Both the position numbers and the translations under genes were made by a program. A stretch of DNA of 23,707 nt from a virus, in the IMG/VR virus record IMGVR_UViG_3300037842_000663, positions 1 through 23,707 of that record. The stretch is one strand, 5' to 3'. Shown in pieces: positions 4,513 to 22,901 of this stretch; within the stretch, counting starts at the first letter, position 1; the number at the start of each line of letters is the position of its first letter. The notes below the pieces were generated by a model. That model saw only the letters and a program-made list of their open reading frames with translations. It had not been told where the DNA came from and searched no databases.

Positions 4513-7443
4513 ATGGGTCAATCATTTACAGGAACCCCTTTTGATCAAGGTGTAAAAACTCAAATAGAAACAAGACAAAAATCTTTAGGAAAATATACTA
4601 ATATTCCTTCTAAAGATCTTCAATACTACACTACTAAAACCCCATTCTTAAGATTAGCAAGCTCAGTTGATTTAGAATTTTATAGTCCATTAAAAGGAGT
4701 CCCTAAACAGTTAAAAGATTTAGGGTATGATGTTGGAACATGGGATGGAGATTATTTAGCAAAAAATATTATTTTACAAGGAGGAGTAGCCAGTTATGAT
4801 AAAGATAAAAAGAAAGATTTTCTACAAGCTGGTTTAAATAATGGTAGTAGTATATTTAATGGCGCTTATGGGTGGGGAGGAACATCAGAAAGAGGATATA
4901 TTCCTATGCCTGGTATTACAAATGCTGATGTAACTTATTATAATAATGGGGCTTTATCAAAAACTACTATAAATATAAAATGTTATAGTAAAGCTCAATT
5001 CCAATTAATAGATATACTTTACTTAAGACCAGGATATACTTTATTAATGGAATTTGGACATTCTGTATGGTTAGATAAGAAACAAAATCTTAAATCTATG
5101 GATAGTTTCTTAACAGAACCTATGTCTAAATTTCTTTCACCTGATGAAGGAACAAACCAATACGAAATTTATCAATCTATTAAAACGGCTAGAGAAACAT
5201 ATGATTATAATTATGAAGCTTTTTTTGGTCAAATAAGTAATTTTAATTGGCAATTCAATAGTGATGGTAGTTATGATTGTCAAGTTCAATTAACTTCTAT
5301 AGGTGATGTTATTGCATCTTTAAAATGTAATATTACTGATCCTTCTATACCCGATATAGATGTTAATGAAAATAAAAGCTGGTGGGAAAAACATATTCCT
5401 ACTTCTGATACGCACAAAGATGCCCCACCTTTAGTATCAAATGCAAATAAAACAACAATAAATAGGGAGTTATTTAAAATATATCAATCTGCCCAGATGT
5501 CAAAACCTAAAACTAATACTCTTATAGATTATACACTTTCAGAGTATGTAGGGGTTGATGAAAATGGAAAACCAGAAACACCAACCTCATTAAAATTTGA
5601 AAAAGGATTACTTGCTATTCCTGGAACTACAACAGATATAAAGCAAAATGAATCACCTCAAGTTTATATAAAATATGGAGCGTTTTTAGCTTATTTACAA
5701 TCAAAAGTTTTATTATATGATAAAAAAACTGATACACCTTTGGTTGTTTTTGATATGGATTTTAAAAATCTCGATAAAGATGAAAATGTAATATTTAAAG
5801 TACCAGGACAATTTTCAGCAGATCCTAGAGTATGTATAATTCCTTATTCAAATACTAATATAGGAGAAGGTGTAACTCTACCCCAAACAAAAATTAATGA
5901 AGTTGTTTCTGCAACAGCCTGGGAATATCAAACTTATTTAGGTAGAGTAGGTAATATTATGGTAAATGTTAATTTTTTAGCTACTTGTTTAGTAGATGCC
6001 TCTGATGAAAAGGGTAATATTAATGTTATTGATTATCTTAAAAGTATTAATAATGGGTTAATAACAGCATTAGGAGATATAAATGAATTTAAAATTAAAT
6101 TATCTGATGATGGTTTAAAGTTAATATTTAATGAAAATATCCCCCAAAGAAGAACACCAGACACTCCAACAAGTGAGTATACCAGATTTAATGTGTATGG
6201 TGTAAAACCTGGAATTGAGGGAAGTTTTATTAGAAATGTAAGTTTAAATGCTTCAATTCCTTCAAATTTTGCAACTATGATATCTATTGGAGCCCAAAGT
6301 AATGGAAACCAATTATCTGAAAATGCAACTTCGTTTTCAAATTATAATATGGGGTTAGCAGATAGGATTATAAAAGTAAAAGAAAGTATTTACCCTAAAA
6401 AAACACCAACTACTGAAGATGAAGTAGATGAAGTAACAATAAAAACTAATTTTGATGATAACATAAATGCATCTAATGAAGAAGGTGCAAGTTTATTTTT
6501 AAAAATTTATGGGGATACAAGTTTAAAATTTTTAAATGATAATATAGGTTCTTTAGTAAGTCACAATAAAACCCATGCTTCTTTATTAGTAGGAAAATTA
6601 ACTAAAGATAACCAAATACAAGCTCCTTTCTTTTTACCATTTAACTTCCAACTTGAAATGGATGGACTTTCAGGTATGAAATTATATCAGAAATTTTTAA
6701 TGACTGATGACATTTTACCACCTACGTATGCTAATGATGGGGTTGATTTACAAATTACAGGCATAAACCATAAAATAGACACATCAGCTTGGATTACAGA
6801 AGTAACTACTCAAAGTGTAGCAGCCGAAACTTTAGGAGCACCTGCAAGACCAAAACAGTTAGTATCATCAGCAACAACCCAACAATCATCTAACCTATCT
6901 AATTCTTTACCTTTATCAAACACAGAAGCCCCAGCTTCCCAAGATCCGGAATCAATTACAAGATTTAATGCAATGCAGGCATCATATAATTGGGTATTTA
7001 GTAGAGATGGTGAAGTTAAATCGATGTGTGCTAGATGGTCTTATAATTTAGCTTTAAATTATATAAAATATTTGAAAGGTTACAACCCTGAAAAAAGACA
7101 ACTAGCAGCTGGTGGTAATGCTAATAATAATAATGAATATTATAATAATTTAACAGCTTTAGGATATACTAAAACTCAATCAGTTGTAACTAAATCACAA
7201 TTATTAAATTCATTAGCTACTCGTACTTGGGGTTATGGAGATATAGTAGCTTATTATTGTAATGATGGTCCTACAAATATGAGTCATGTAAAATATGGCC
7301 ACACACAAGTTTATGTAGGGGATATTAATTCTACTAAATGGACAACATCAACCCAAACCAACTATAATACTGATTTCCCTTATAGATCAAGGGTGGGAGA
7401 TAATTGGACGTATTTAATATTTACAGCACCCTCAACATCATAA
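4513..7443 (+). CDS. Large baseplate protein with C-terminal NlpC/P60- or CHAP-like peptidase domain
   Basis: This 976-aa structural protein has Asn/Tyr/Ser-rich beta-type sequence in its first roughly 800 residues. These include a TYYNNGALSKTTINIKCYSK segment and a YTLLMEFGHSVWL segment, suggesting a hub or central spike-associated baseplate protein. The last roughly 150 residues look like a separate cell-wall hydrolase domain: SMCARWSYNLALNY places a candidate nucleophile at C839, and WGYGDIVAYYC followed by YGHTQVYVGD gives a candidate catalytic His at H930. This Cys/His arrangement is that of NlpC/P60 or CHAP peptidoglycan endopeptidases/amidases. An Asn/Gln/Pro/Ser-rich linker (about 800-820) separates the parts. 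The likely role is local digestion of peptidoglycan during DNA injection. The start has the AAAAGTTAT leader. The third catalytic residue cannot be fixed by eye. Confidence 0.65.
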   Translation: MGQSFTGTPFDQGVKTQIETRQKSLGKYTNIPSKDLQYYTTKTPFLRLASSVDLEFYSPLKGVPKQLKDLGYDVGTWDGDYLAKNIILQGGVASYDKDKKKDFLQAGLNNGSSIFNGAYGWGGTSERGYIPMPGITNADVTYYNNGALSKTTINIKCYSKAQFQLIDILYLRPGYTLLMEFGHSVWLDKKQNLKSMDSFLTEPMSKFLSPDEGTNQYEIYQSIKTARETYDYNYEAFFGQISNFNWQFNSDGSYDCQVQLTSIGDVIASLKCNITDPSIPDIDVNENKSWWEKHIPTSDTHKDAPPLVSNANKTTINRELFKIYQSAQMSKPKTNTLIDYTLSEYVGVDENGKPETPTSLKFEKGLLAIPGTTTDIKQNESPQVYIKYGAFLAYLQSKVLLYDKKTDTPLVVFDMDFKNLDKDENVIFKVPGQFSADPRVCIIPYSNTNIGEGVTLPQTKINEVVSATAWEYQTYLGRVGNIMVNVNFLATCLVDASDEKGNINVIDYLKSINNGLITALGDINEFKIKLSDDGLKLIFNENIPQRRTPDTPTSEYTRFNVYGVKPGIEGSFIRNVSLNASIPSNFATMISIGAQSNGNQLSENATSFSNYNMGLADRIIKVKESIYPKKTPTTEDEVDEVTIKTNFDDNINASNEEGASLFLKIYGDTSLKFLNDNIGSLVSHNKTHASLLVGKLTKDNQIQAPFFLPFNFQLEMDGLSGMKLYQKFLMTDDILPPTYANDGVDLQITGINHKIDTSAWITEVTTQSVAAETLGAPARPKQLVSSATTQQSSNLSNSLPLSNTEAPASQDPESITRFNAMQASYNWVFSRDGEVKSMCARWSYNLALNYIKYLKGYNPEKRQLAAGGNANNNNEYYNNLTALGYTKTQSVVTKSQLLNSLATRTWGYGDIVAYYCNDGPTNMSHVKYGHTQVYVGDINSTKWTTSTQTNYNTDFPYRSRVGDNWTYLIFTAPSTS

Positions 7444-9948: not shown

Positions 9949-10791
9949 ATGGATTTAAACGCAATTAAAAAGCGCCTGAATGATTTTCAAAATCAGGCCA
10001 ACAATTCAGGAGGTGGTCAAAGACAACTATTCTGGAAACCCTCAGTAGGTAAACAACTAATTAGAGTTGCACCTAACAAATACAACAAAGACTTCCCATT
10101 TACAGAAATGAGATTCTATTATGGAATTGGTAGTAAACGAGTAATGGCTTCTCCTTCAAATTGGGGTGAGAAAGATCCAATTATGGAATTTGCTAAACAA
10201 CTTCGTGGTACTAATGATAAAGAAAATTGGAGATTAGCTAAGAAATTAGACCCAAAAACTCGTATTTTTGCACCTGTAGTAGTTCGTGGTCAAGAAGATG
10301 AAGGAGTTAAATTATGGCAGTTTGGTAAAGAAGTTTATCAAGAATTTTTAAATATGGCGGCTGATGATGAAATTGGTGATTTTACAGACATTGCTGGTGG
10401 TAGAGATATTAAATTATCTACGGTAGGACCAGAAACAAATGGAACACCATATAATAAAACGTCAATTGGTCCATCACTTAAAACATCTCCAATTCATACA
10501 GATGCAGCATTAGTTGAAAAACTAATAAATGATCAAGCTGACCCAATGAAAGTATTTAAACCACTTTCTTATGATGAAATGAAGGCAGCTCTTCAAGAAT
10601 TTCTAACACCAGATGGTGAAGGTGAAGAAGGATCCATTTCTTCAGAGCCTGCGGTTGCATTTGATAGTGATGAAAAAAAGTCTAATTATTCATTAGATAC
10701 AACATCAACTAATGTAAAAAAGACAAAAGCAGCTCAATTTGATGATTTATTTTCTGATGATAAAAAATCAGATGATGATTTACCATTTTAA
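9949..10791 (+). CDS. Single-stranded DNA-binding protein, gp32-like, with SSB-type C-terminal tail
   Basis: This 280-aa protein coats ssDNA at the fork and organises replication and recombination proteins. The core (about 25-140) follows the gp32 layout: FWKPSVGKQLIRVAP, then FPFTEMRFYYGIG, then DPKTRIFAPVVVRG and VKLWQFGKEVYQEFLNM, which corresponds to the strand region preceding the conserved FGKKIWDKI of T4 gp32. The entire protein has no cysteine, so the zinc ribbon of T4 gp32 cannot be present. The C-terminal third is acidic, Ser/Asp/Glu-rich and presumably disordered, ending in DDDLPF. This matches the DDDIPF-type tail of bacterial SSB rather than the T4 gp32 end. The gene lies directly before uvsX (10-base gap) under its own promoter. 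Family call is confident; partner binding by the tail is inferred. Confidence 0.85.
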   Translation: MDLNAIKKRLNDFQNQANNSGGGQRQLFWKPSVGKQLIRVAPNKYNKDFPFTEMRFYYGIGSKRVMASPSNWGEKDPIMEFAKQLRGTNDKENWRLAKKLDPKTRIFAPVVVRGQEDEGVKLWQFGKEVYQEFLNMAADDEIGDFTDIAGGRDIKLSTVGPETNGTPYNKTSIGPSLKTSPIHTDAALVEKLINDQADPMKVFKPLSYDEMKAALQEFLTPDGEGEEGSISSEPAVAFDSDEKKSNYSLDTTSTNVKKTKAAQFDDLFSDDKKSDDDLPF

Positions 10792-19749: not shown

Positions 19750-20910
19750 ATGTTTAAAAATTTTCAACAAAAATTATTTCCATTATTAATAGCATTTTCT
19801 GCTTTGTCAGTAAGTGCATCTGCTGCTTTTTATTCAATAAGTGGCCTTAGTAAATTATTTGCAGGAGCTGCCTTTGCAGTTATTATAATGGCTGCTTCAT
19901 TAGAAATTGCAAAGTTAGTAATAGCATCTCTTCTATATCAATACCGAAAAGGATTACCAAAATTTTTAAAATATTATTTATCTATAGCTTGTGTTGTTTT
20001 AATATTAATAACATCTATGGGTATTTACGGCTTCCTATCAGCAGCATACCAGGAAATAGCCGCTAAAGCAGGAACAATTGATGCTCAAATTGCATTAGTA
20101 GAAGTAAAAAGAGATAATGTTAAAGGTCAATTACTTGTATATAATGAAGAGAAATCATCTATTAATGAGGCTGTGGCTAGTTTACGAAATGGCTTATCTA
20201 CGAATAAAATACAATATACAGACACATTAGGTAATGTAATTACAACAACATCTTCATCCACCCGTAGAGCTTTAGAAAAACAATTAGATCAAGCAATTGA
20301 AAGACAAACTATAATTAATTCTAAAGTAGATGATTTAAATGAAGATTTATTTAAATATGAAACTGAAATAGTAGAAATAAAAACAAGTGATGCTATAACA
20401 AGTGAATTAGGACCCTTAAAATATCTATCAGGATTAACAGGAATCCCAATGGATAGAATTATTAACTATTTATTATTAACTATTATATTTGTATTTGATC
20501 CTCTAGCAATAGCACTTGTAATAGCCGCTAATTATGCTTTTGAAAGAATAAGACCAAATACAAAAAAAAACCTTTACGGGGAAAAAGTAAAAATTGAAGA
20601 AGATGCGGGAGATAGCATTAAAGAAGAAATAGAGGAAAATCTTTGGGACAAACCAGAATCTTGGGATAAATCTATTATCGATGAGGAAGAATCATCTAGT
20701 ATGTATGAACACGCTTATAAATCTCCTATCAAAGAAGAACGCGGGTTACCTGAAGGGTACGCATCTGAAATTGGAGAATTAGAAGAAAAAATAAAAAATA
20801 CCTCAAAAACAAACAAAAGAGGTCCTAGAGGTTTAGTAGCTTTAAATAAAAAGTTAAAAGAACTCAAAGGAAAAAATAATGATGATGACGATTTAGTTAT
20901 TCGTTATTAA
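19750..20910 (+). CDS. Multi-pass membrane protein with central coiled coil, unknown function
   Basis: This 386-aa protein has three N-terminal membrane helices (about 10-30, 38-62, 76-95), a long charged, coiled-coil-prone middle (about 98-215, including EKQLDQAIERQTIINSKVDD), a fourth helix (about 237-262, INYLLLTIIFVFDPLAIALV) and an acidic then basic C-terminal tail. The DPLAIALVIAAN end of helix four is a feature I recall in unnamed membrane proteins of large phages, without known function. It is the last gene of the lysis module and precedes a strong terminator, so it may be an outer-membrane-disrupting (spanin-like) or lysis-timing factor. It lacks a lipobox or a single-pass i-spanin layout, so a spanin is only one option. 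Confidence 0.75.
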   Translation: MFKNFQQKLFPLLIAFSALSVSASAAFYSISGLSKLFAGAAFAVIIMAASLEIAKLVIASLLYQYRKGLPKFLKYYLSIACVVLILITSMGIYGFLSAAYQEIAAKAGTIDAQIALVEVKRDNVKGQLLVYNEEKSSINEAVASLRNGLSTNKIQYTDTLGNVITTTSSSTRRALEKQLDQAIERQTIINSKVDDLNEDLFKYETEIVEIKTSDAITSELGPLKYLSGLTGIPMDRIINYLLLTIIFVFDPLAIALVIAANYAFERIRPNTKKNLYGEKVKIEEDAGDSIKEEIEENLWDKPESWDKSIIDEEESSSMYEHAYKSPIKEERGLPEGYASEIGELEEKIKNTSKTNKRGPRGLVALNKKLKELKGKNNDDDDLVIRY

Positions 20911-20935: not shown

Positions 20936-20962
20936 AAAGACGCCTTAATCGGCGTCTTTTTT
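20936..20962 (+). terminator. Intrinsic terminator ending the lysis module
   Basis: AAAGACGCC (20936-20944) pairs perfectly with GGCGTCTTT (20951-20959) over 9 bp with a 6-base loop, and the 3' arm runs into a six-T tract (20957-20962). It lies 26 bases after the membrane protein stop and just before a new promoter. This is the clearest Rho-independent terminator in the window. Confidence 0.9.
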
Positions 20963-20980
20963 ATTTCTATGCGAAAATAT

Positions 20981-21009
20981 TTGGAGAAGCGGGGGAGGGT
21001 TCGTATATT
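20981..21009 (+). promoter_or_regulatory. Promoter TTGGAG-N17-TATATT after the terminator
   Basis: TTGGAG (20981-20986) and TATATT (21004-21009) are 17 bases apart, with TTCG before the -10 and an unusually G-rich spacer. It restarts transcription directly after the terminator. It also settles the start of the next gene: an ATG at 21020 would fall almost on the transcription start. Confidence 0.65.
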
Positions 21010-21046
21010 TACCATGTAAATGAGATTAAAAACAAATAAAGGTTAT

Positions 21047-21322
21047 ATGAATATTAAAAAACAATTGCAAAAAGGTAATGTAAAATTTACAGTTAAAGGT
21101 ATTACTACTTATTGTAAAGGTGATGATGGTAAGTATGGAATGAATCCAAAAATATTTAAAGTTAGTCAAAAGGGTGGTTCTATTCATGCTGAATTTGATG
21201 GTATGAATGTTACTAAATGGGGTCCTACCTGTGTTACATTGTATACATTTGATATGTTAGGTAAAAAATCAGTAGGTAAAATTAATTATAAGGAAATCAA
21301 AATTATTAACCAAAATAAATAA
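21047..21322 (+). CDS. Small unknown protein
   Basis: This 91-aa protein begins MNIKKQLQKGNVKFTVKG and is Lys/Gly-rich with an alternating hydrophobic pattern that suggests a small beta-sheet fold (KFTVKGITTYCKGDD, FKVSQKGGSIHAEFDG, GPTCVTLYTFDM). Net charge is positive. I see no known motif. I chose 21047 because it has an AAAGGTTAT leader typical of this genome, whereas the in-frame ATG at 21020 sits only about 11 bases after the promoter -10. It heads a cluster of small genes and is followed 4 bases later by an acidic microprotein, so the two are probably co-expressed. Nucleic-acid binding is a guess from charge only. Confidence 0.7.
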   Translation: MNIKKQLQKGNVKFTVKGITTYCKGDDGKYGMNPKIFKVSQKGGSIHAEFDGMNVTKWGPTCVTLYTFDMLGKKSVGKINYKEIKIINQNK

Positions 21323-21326
21323 AAAT

Positions 21327-21464
21327 ATGTTTATAGATATTGAAGTATTAGCAGACCAGTGGGAATTAGAGCAAGAATTACTTGCCGAATTACAAGAAGA
21401 ATTATTAGAAAATCCAGGTATTATTATCTCTGAAGAAGGAGAAGAAGACGATCTACCATTTTAA
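21327..21464 (+). CDS. Acidic 45-aa microprotein ending in an SSB-type DDLPF tail
   Basis: The frame encodes 45 residues starting MFIDIEVLADQWELEQ, continuing with a Leu/Glu-rich helix (ELLAELQEELLENPG) and ending EEGEEDDLPF. The last five residues are identical to the end of the gp32-like protein encoded in this window (DDDLPF) and match the SSB C-terminal tip that recruits many replication and repair proteins in bacteria (PF essential, preceded by acids). The rest is acidic and has no OB fold. It starts 4 bases after the preceding stop in an AAAAAT context, so translation is plausible. The role is inferred: a decoy or competitor for SSB-binding proteins. Its small size means the coding call rests on the coherent sequence and location. 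Confidence 0.65.
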   Translation: MFIDIEVLADQWELEQELLAELQEELLENPGIIISEEGEEDDLPF

Positions 21465-21465
21465 T

Positions 21466-21522
21466 ATGAAAGTAAAACTATTAAATATAACTCCTATAAT
21501 AGCAGAATCTTTAAAATGGTAA
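21466..21522 (+). pseudogene. 18-codon stub with a ThyX-like beginning
   Basis: An ATG one base after the preceding stop opens 18 codons, MKVKLLNITPIIAESLKW, then TAA. MKVKLL-x-xTP is how many flavin-dependent thymidylate synthases (ThyX) begin. Nothing downstream in the remaining roughly 65 bases to the next gene continues such a protein, and thyA follows soon after. It may be the remnant of a thyX gene, or a short peptide of no relation. The resemblance is from memory over only ten residues. Confidence 0.25.
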
Positions 21523-21588: not shown

Positions 21589-21726
21589 ATGAGTATAAAA
21601 AATGAGGAACTTATCCTTAAAGAAATCTCTAAACTTCGCCCCTTAAATTATAATAGATTTATGTGGTGGCGTCGTTTTGATCAAAAGAAAAGACCATTAG
21701 ATAATAAAACACCACGAAAAATATGA
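21589..21726 (+). CDS. Small basic protein coupled to thyA, unknown function
   Basis: This 45-aa product starts MSIKNEELILKEISKLRPLN and contains an aromatic/basic patch, YNRFMWWRRF, followed by a Lys/Arg-rich tail. Its TGA overlaps the thyA ATG in an ATGA, so the two genes are translationally coupled, and it is the first gene after a strong promoter with the standard leader AAAAGTTATG. No homologous family comes to mind. It may be a small regulator or partner protein, or mainly a translational leader for thyA. Confidence 0.55.
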   Translation: MSIKNEELILKEISKLRPLNYNRFMWWRRFDQKKRPLDNKTPRKI

Positions 21727-22901
21727 ATAAATTAGACGAACAATACAGAGGTATTTTAGCTGAACTCCTGTATAATGGAAGGGAAAAAGGAGATAGAACC
21801 GGAACCGGAACCTTATCTAAATTTGGAATGCAAATTAGACACTCAATGTCTGAAGGCTTTCCATTACTAACAACTAAGAAAATGCCATTTAAAACAATCA
21901 CTACAGAACTGTTATGGTTTCTTAAAGGTGATACGAACATTAAATATCTTGTCAATAATGGATGTAACATTTGGAATGGTGATGCTTATAAGAGATATGA
22001 AATGGAATTTGAAAAAGGTAATGCCCCCGGTGAAACTTTGCTAGTTCAGAGAGTAGAAGGTAAATCTACTAAAAGAAAATTCTCAATGGAGAAGTTTATT
22101 GCAATGATTCAACATGATGATGAGTTTGCTAAGAAGTGGGGTGATTTAGGTCCTGGATATGGTTCGCAGTGGAGAAGTTGGAACTCAAGGCCATGGATAC
22201 CCAGTGCATATTTAGATGAAAATGGGGCTCCTGTAATCAATGGTTCGCAATCAAAACATGGGGGTATGACTCGTGAGATTAAAGTTATAATTGATGGTAT
22301 AGACCAAATCGAAAACCTAATCAACGAACTTAAAACAAATCCAGATTCAAGACGATTAATGGTTTCAGCATGGAACGTTGGTGAGATAGACCAAATGGTA
22401 CTTCCACCATGCCATTATGGATTTCAAGTTTATACAAGAGAGTTGAGTTTTGAAGAAAGATTTAGATTATGGAACAGTACCTATATGCCTATGAGTCAAC
22501 ACACTACAGAAGATATTACAATGTTTAAAACGCATACAAAAGAAGAAAATGAAAAAGTATTTAGTGAAGTTAATGTCCCAACCAGAGCAATTTCTCTAAT
22601 GTGGAATCAACGTTCAGTAGATACATTCTTAGGTTTACCATTCAACATTGCTTCTTATGGTTTATTACTTGAAATGATTGCTAAGGAAGTGAATATGGTA
22701 ACTGATGAATTGATTGGTAATTTAGGTGATGTACATTTATACTCTAATCATATTGAACAAGCAAAAGAACAGGTTAGTAGAGATGGTTTTGATTTACCTA
22801 CTATTAAACTATCAAATGTAGATATTTTAAATGGAGAATTTGACTACGAATTAATAAACTACACTTCAGCAACAGCAATTAAAGCACCTTTAAGTAATTA
22901 A
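21723..22901 (+). CDS. thyA: Thymidylate synthase (ThyA), enlarged by insertions
   Basis: This enzyme converts dUMP to dTMP with methylene-tetrahydrofolate. Family landmarks: GDRTGTGTLSKFG (R25, phosphate binding), FPLLTTKKMPFKTITTELLW, GYGSQWRSW, NPDSRRLMVSAWNVG, MVLPPCHYGFQVY with catalytic C230, LMWNQRSVDTFLGLPFNIAS, and LGDVHLYSNHIEQAKEQ. At 392 aa it is well above E. coli ThyA (264) and T4 Td (286). The excess lies in about 93-140, 155-188 and, right after the catalytic strand, 238-288 (ELSFEERFRLW onward). These segments interrupt surface loops and leave the catalytic residues intact, so an active enzyme is expected. The ATG overlaps the preceding stop (ATGA). Together with RNR it supplies thymidine nucleotides for replication. 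Confidence 0.93.
   Translation: MNKLDEQYRGILAELLYNGREKGDRTGTGTLSKFGMQIRHSMSEGFPLLTTKKMPFKTITTELLWFLKGDTNIKYLVNNGCNIWNGDAYKRYEMEFEKGNAPGETLLVQRVEGKSTKRKFSMEKFIAMIQHDDEFAKKWGDLGPGYGSQWRSWNSRPWIPSAYLDENGAPVINGSQSKHGGMTREIKVIIDGIDQIENLINELKTNPDSRRLMVSAWNVGEIDQMVLPPCHYGFQVYTRELSFEERFRLWNSTYMPMSQHTTEDITMFKTHTKEENEKVFSEVNVPTRAISLMWNQRSVDTFLGLPFNIASYGLLLEMIAKEVNMVTDELIGNLGDVHLYSNHIEQAKEQVSRDGFDLPTIKLSNVDILNGEFDYELINYTSATAIKAPLSN

Follow-up and report, generated by a model that had tools for sequence, protein, structure and literature searches.

The C-terminal tails of bacterial SSBs serve as the principal address label for enzymes of recombination, restart and repair, and the terminal phenylalanine of these tails is held to be essential. 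Several defence systems are triggered by phage SSBs. In E. coli, more than 17 proteins read the SSB tail, and in RecO the Pro-Phe end sits in a hydrophobic pocket (PMC7913777). E. coli RecO binds a tail peptide of 15 residues with a K of ~1.2e7 per molar, and RecO, RecQ and RadD all change in activity in the presence of the SSB tail alone (PMC7913777). The tail by itself, with no SSB attached, is thus enough to produce an effect. Phages also encode small proteins, of less than 100 aa, that bind host proteins and act on them, and a review of these proteins mentions neither SSB nor single-stranded DNA (PMC11323111).

The microprotein described here resembles these small phage proteins in size and probably in binding other proteins. 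The window, i.e. the whole stretch of DNA analysed, is a 23,707-base IMG/VR virus record which carries T4-like replication genes and comes from an uncultured phage that probably infects Bacteroidota. According to the original prediction, the microprotein may mimic the SSB tail and could act as a decoy for host SSB partners or bridge them to phage replisomes, and no phage protein of this type was known to have been described. We likewise found no phage SSB-tail mimic in the open-access literature searched, which is weak evidence of novelty.

Results

Occurrence and conservation of the microprotein gene

The microprotein gene lies at 21327-21464 on the + strand, with an ATG start, 45 codons and a stop (MFIDIEVLADQWELEQELLAELQEELLENPGIIISEEGEEDDLPF), and the predicted EEDDLPF end was confirmed exactly. 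Besides the microprotein, the window contains just one frame of 30 aa or longer that ends in LPF, that of a gp32-like protein. Among 60 dinucleotide shuffles of the window, such LPF-ended frames averaged 0.07 and none ended in [DEN][DG]LPF.

The 45-aa frame is also present in 18 other IMG/VR contigs, three of which are 163-164 kb long, and together with the window these represent eight distinct DNA alleles. The start and stop positions are conserved, the stop codon being TAA or TGA, and pairwise dN/dS values are mostly 0.04-0.15, the highest being 0.31 for one pair. A spurious frame was rejected on these grounds: the 21327-21464 frame is a genuine conserved gene under purifying selection. The loss of the frame or of its tip in close relatives, which would have spoken against the original prediction, is not observed.

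With regard to the distribution of changes on a tree of the eight alleles, the N-terminal motif MFIDIEVLAD(Q/R)WELEQEL (residues 1-18; 21327-21380, + strand) is the most conserved part, with a minimum of 10 nucleotide changes and 1 amino-acid change. Residues 19-35 accumulated at least 35 nucleotide and 13 amino-acid changes, and the acidic residues 36-42 a minimum of 12 and 7, respectively. In the terminal LPF (codons at 21453-21461, + strand), a minimum of 4 nucleotide changes led to no amino-acid change: each of the three codons varies silently and the Leu-Pro-Phe residues are invariant in 8/8 alleles. Given the codons present, a random change in LPF has a ~29% chance of being silent, and the probability of four out of four silent changes in an unconstrained sequence is therefore ~0.7%. 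It follows from these counts that two parts are selected separately, the N-terminal motif and the terminal tripeptide, the latter independently of the remaining tail, and that the acidic linker drifts. The predicted conservation of the tip thus holds for LPF but not for DDLPF as a whole, since DDLPF, NDLPF and DGLPF all occur among the alleles. A chance tip was rejected, given that the shuffles yielded no match and that all eight alleles keep LPF. Nor is the tip conserved on account of an overlapping downstream gene, because the downstream neighbour differs among relatives while LPF is constant.

The microprotein has no Pfam or PHROG match and no PDB relative (best E 2.1). A tblastn search against 50,697 phage records returned nothing even at E=10, although low-complexity filtering may have hidden the query. 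No bacterial homolog was found in one scan of genome contigs, nor in four Flavobacteriaceae genomes, which included no positive control.

A two-gene unit with a likely promoter

The upstream partner gene lies at 21047-21322 on the + strand and encodes 91 aa, or 100 aa from an earlier ATG at 21020; in the relatives that carry the microprotein it mostly encodes 108 aa (range 91-112 aa). The microprotein gene is directly downstream of it wherever both flanks could be read (seven relatives), and the two form a two-gene unit. Upstream of this unit (20980-21012, + strand), a promoter-like element, TTTGG-N19-TATATTTAC, is found in the window and in 7/7 relatives compared, with a variable spacer sequence; it occurs once in the window, against 0.01 matches expected. 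It resembles the Bacteroidota -33 TTTG / -7 consensus and is likely to be a Bacteroidota-type promoter. A terminator-like hairpin at 20936-20959 (+ strand) separates the unit from the 386-aa gene at 19750-20910; it was listed on the - strand, and its T-run was read directly on the + strand.

The partner protein (window 21047-21322; L110 5659-5985) is predicted to comprise a helix and seven strands, with a pLDDT of 91, and no convincing fold relative was found (Foldseek best E 0.087; VIA best Z 4.9). Chains of SspB, a ClpXP adaptor, gave weak matches (Z 3.4-3.8), which are within noise. Given its beta-rich model and the adjacency of the two genes, the 91/108-aa protein might bind nucleic acid and receive an SSB-type tail in trans from the microprotein, the pair acting as a split SSB. 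We consider this very unlikely, as the OB-fold match is not significant and other phages carry a relative of the 91-aa gene but lack the microprotein. The latter observation also marks the microprotein gene as accessory.

The downstream neighbours of the microprotein vary among relatives and include a SET-domain gene and unrelated frames. The SET-domain protein (PF00856; E 1e-11 in L110) is encoded downstream of the microprotein in several relatives, among them L110 (6122-6535) and L107 (6140-6541), and is not there in the window. In the window, an 18-codon frame at 21466-21522 (MKVKLLNITPIIAESLKW) has halves that match the start (MQVKLLNITP) and the end (PIIAEALKF) of thyX and looks like a thyX deletion scar. 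A thyX gene (PF02511) is present in the neighbourhood in relatives (L121 4153-4806, L110 7006-7662); in its place the window has thyA, at 21723-22901, just downstream of the 18-codon frame.

The tip resembles those of gp32 and host SSBs

The acidic tail and SSB-like tip of the microprotein, EEGEEDDLPF (21432-21461, + strand), were compared with the tips of gp32 and of host SSBs. The gp32-like ssDNA-binding protein at 9949-10791 (+ strand; PF08804, E=5e-15) has the DDDLPF end that had been predicted, its C-terminus being SDDDLPF (tail FDDLFSDDKKSDDDLPF). All 80 gp32 homologs fetched have a terminal Phe; their tips are DDLPF (66), NDLPF (7), DPLPF (3) and, one each, DGLPF, DELPF, DDLSF and EESPF. 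All three variants of the microprotein tip are among them. The comparison with the host SSB tail, which had been suggested at the outset, revealed mostly NDLPF (44) and DDLPF (27) among 80 Flavobacteriaceae SSBs, which were fetched with a consensus bait, the scores describing the fetched sequences only.

The SSB tail of Flavobacteriaceae (SSB-Ct, PF00436) and the microprotein tail are thus alike in that [N/D]DLPF follows a linker which is acidic or disordered, and in that the same changes are tolerated before LPF. All eight alleles share the acidic tip ending in Pro-Phe that characterises bacterial SSBs. In contrast to an SSB, however, the microprotein has only 45 aa in total, the OB domain is absent and a helix replaces the DNA-binding core; it has no Pfam match, and the window has no PF00436 match. 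The DDLPF tip is likewise common to the microprotein and the gp32-like proteins (PF08804, phrog_1192), both of which are encoded by the same phages. Nevertheless, gp32 has a DNA-binding core and an extra FDDLF motif, whereas the microprotein has neither: 9949-10791 matches PF08804 and the microprotein matches neither PF08804 nor any PHROG.

The nearest annotated isolate, as judged by gp32 (41% identity across the first 221 residues), is Flavobacterium phage immuto, in which neither the gp32 LPF tip nor the microprotein was found. T4 gp32 ends in TDLDDLLNDL and immuto gp32 in KFDDLFN. In the gp32 tails of the window phage group (window, L177-L256), FDDLF is followed by the terminal DDLPF; immuto stops after FDDLF. 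Judging from the T4 and immuto ends, DDLPF seems to have been added after an older FDDLF motif in the window phage group. This comparison suggests the gain of a host-type tip, one that resembles the SSB tail of the likely hosts.

The same tripeptide ends SsbA and SsbB of Streptococcus mutans, the last six residues of SsbA being DDDLPF, and in some strains the C-terminal LPF of SsbA is sufficient for degradation by ClpXP, LPY being tolerated (PMC5143411). The LPF end of the microprotein could accordingly be read by a ClpXP-type protease or adaptor and shorten the life of the microprotein, perhaps also that of gp32. We regard such a degradation tag as improbable. The likeness is one of sequence to a degron of a few strains in a distant phylum, and LPF is unrecognised in E. 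coli, S. gordonii, S. sanguinis and several S. mutans strains (PMC5143411). Furthermore, the residues before LPF largely stay acidic in both the microprotein and gp32, a feature that a tag of three residues would not require, and gp32 has to persist during infection.

Predicted structure and distant relatives

The family structure model was made on the L017 relative, standing in for the window protein, and shows a helix at residues 3-26, the remainder being of low confidence. The microprotein is thus predicted to consist of a helix followed by a disordered acidic tail. This model and the lack of a Pfam or PHROG match agree with the original view that it has no ssDNA-binding domain. The hydrophobic moment of the helix in the window protein is not above that of shuffles, i.e. 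it is not significantly amphipathic.

Two more distant relatives were considered. The L017 homolog (4679-4819; 31.6 bits) encodes MDIEVLADRYQEEQEILKQIVDELVKNGEDINIFTDLDEGEDDNLPI and ends in DDNLPI. The L133 candidate (5983-6123), whose homology is more doubtful, has LDPEVLGDRYQEEQEL within a 46-aa frame and no tip. Both retain the N-terminal motif and neither has the terminal Phe, i.e. the SSB-like tip is not retained in these distant homologs; the helix is therefore what defines the family, the SSB-like end being a property of one clade.

These observations bear on the decoy that had been proposed. In a pure form of it, many copies of the microprotein would sit in the SSB-tail pockets of host proteins for repair or defence and so keep these proteins away from phage ssDNA, and the helix would serve only as a carrier or oligomeriser. 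The match of the tip to host SSB and gp32 tips fits this proposal, as does the tight binding of the free tail peptide to RecO (PMC7913777). Retron-Eco8 is triggered by phage SSB (PMC12887533), and AbpAB is reported to be so as well (PMC10732053), so that SSB-sensing proteins can matter in defence. However, a mere carrier would not require the degree of constraint seen in the N-terminal 18 residues. The main argument against a simple decoy is that the distant homologs retain these residues rather than the terminal Phe. The SSB-type tip of the original prediction stands at the level of sequence, but the simple decoy is weakened and we now consider it unlikely.

Other phage proteins ending in LPF

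The 163-kb relative G001 carries gp32, the microprotein and, in addition, a 79-aa frame (117330-117578) ending in KQKQEELPF. This frame belongs to a family of 74-80 aa proteins (RYVVTMDMYVYAENDYMARKRAHKM...; L454-L473, 1501 onward; G001 117330-117578; L094 3893-4129) which is unrelated to the microprotein. The family comprises 20 loci, 49-100% identical to the query, and 20/20 members have an [LM]PF C-terminus, down to 49% identity; the residues before [LM]PF vary and are not strongly acidic. That two unrelated small proteins of G001 share a terminal motif speaks for a common reader.

Frames ending in EEDDLPF number at least 77 in viral contigs and many of them look like SSB, gp32 or other replication proteins, ten having been tested against family libraries. 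Among the matches listed, the microprotein is the shortest complete frame, and short unclassified frames of 70-83 aa are also present, such as the 75-aa and 70-aa proteins without family match in L301 (7556-7780), L335 and L323 (11323-11532). The end is also found on a DnaD-like replication initiator (phrog_428 / PF09524; L274 1703-2464), which is not an SSB. Its last seven residues are the same as those of the microprotein, but it is a replication protein of 254 aa without sequence relation to it.

The C-terminus could instead be an unrelated acidic tail, suited for example to a basic pocket of an RNA polymerase or nuclease, its likeness to SSB being convergent. The 16 D/E and zero K/R of the microprotein recall many acidic phage inhibitors, and L017 ends in NLPI. 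Yet LPF is fixed while the charged residues drift, gp32 has the same tip and the 74-80 aa family has [LM]PF, and convergence consequently seems a rather unlikely explanation. The selection on LPF, the range of gp32 and SSB tips and the second family with [LM]PF indicate together that the resemblance to SSB tails is selected rather than due to chance, and support the reading of the tip as an SSB-type tail selected in its own right.

Discussion

We propose that the microprotein is a small two-headed adaptor, with an N-terminal helix for one partner and an SSB-type tip for another, a reading to which we assign a probability of roughly 40%. It is favoured because the helix is the best conserved part, and the N-terminal motif, being retained in L017 and L133, implies another surface for binding. 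The conserved helix would hold one partner, and the acidic Leu-Pro-Phe tail would dock in a pocket that reads the tail of SSB or of phage gp32; this docking is inferred. The tail readers would be proteins for replication, recombination and repair, encoded by the host and perhaps by the phage, and the microprotein would recruit or occupy them without binding DNA. Which of them reads the tail, and whether it would be recruited or blocked, are guesses at this stage. Several observations speak against the adaptor: the helix of the window protein is not significantly amphipathic, L017 ends in DDNLPI and thus without Phe, the L133 candidate has no tip, and other readers of an acidic LPF terminus, such as a protease, are conceivable.

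More broadly, we tentatively suggest that the present group of T4-like phages, with Bacteroidota as hosts, may possess a set of small proteins, comprising the 45-aa microprotein and the 74-80 aa family, which use the SSB tip as a standalone docking tag, beside a gp32 that has gained a host-type tip. Such a tag would put helices or domains onto SSB readers, or block these readers. If this is true, the tag would have been copied onto unrelated small phage proteins, given that two families are found in related phages and both in the 163-kb G001. The 45-residue protein, being the label only, would then represent a minimal and testable phage tool for redirecting or silencing the whole set of enzymes that read SSB.
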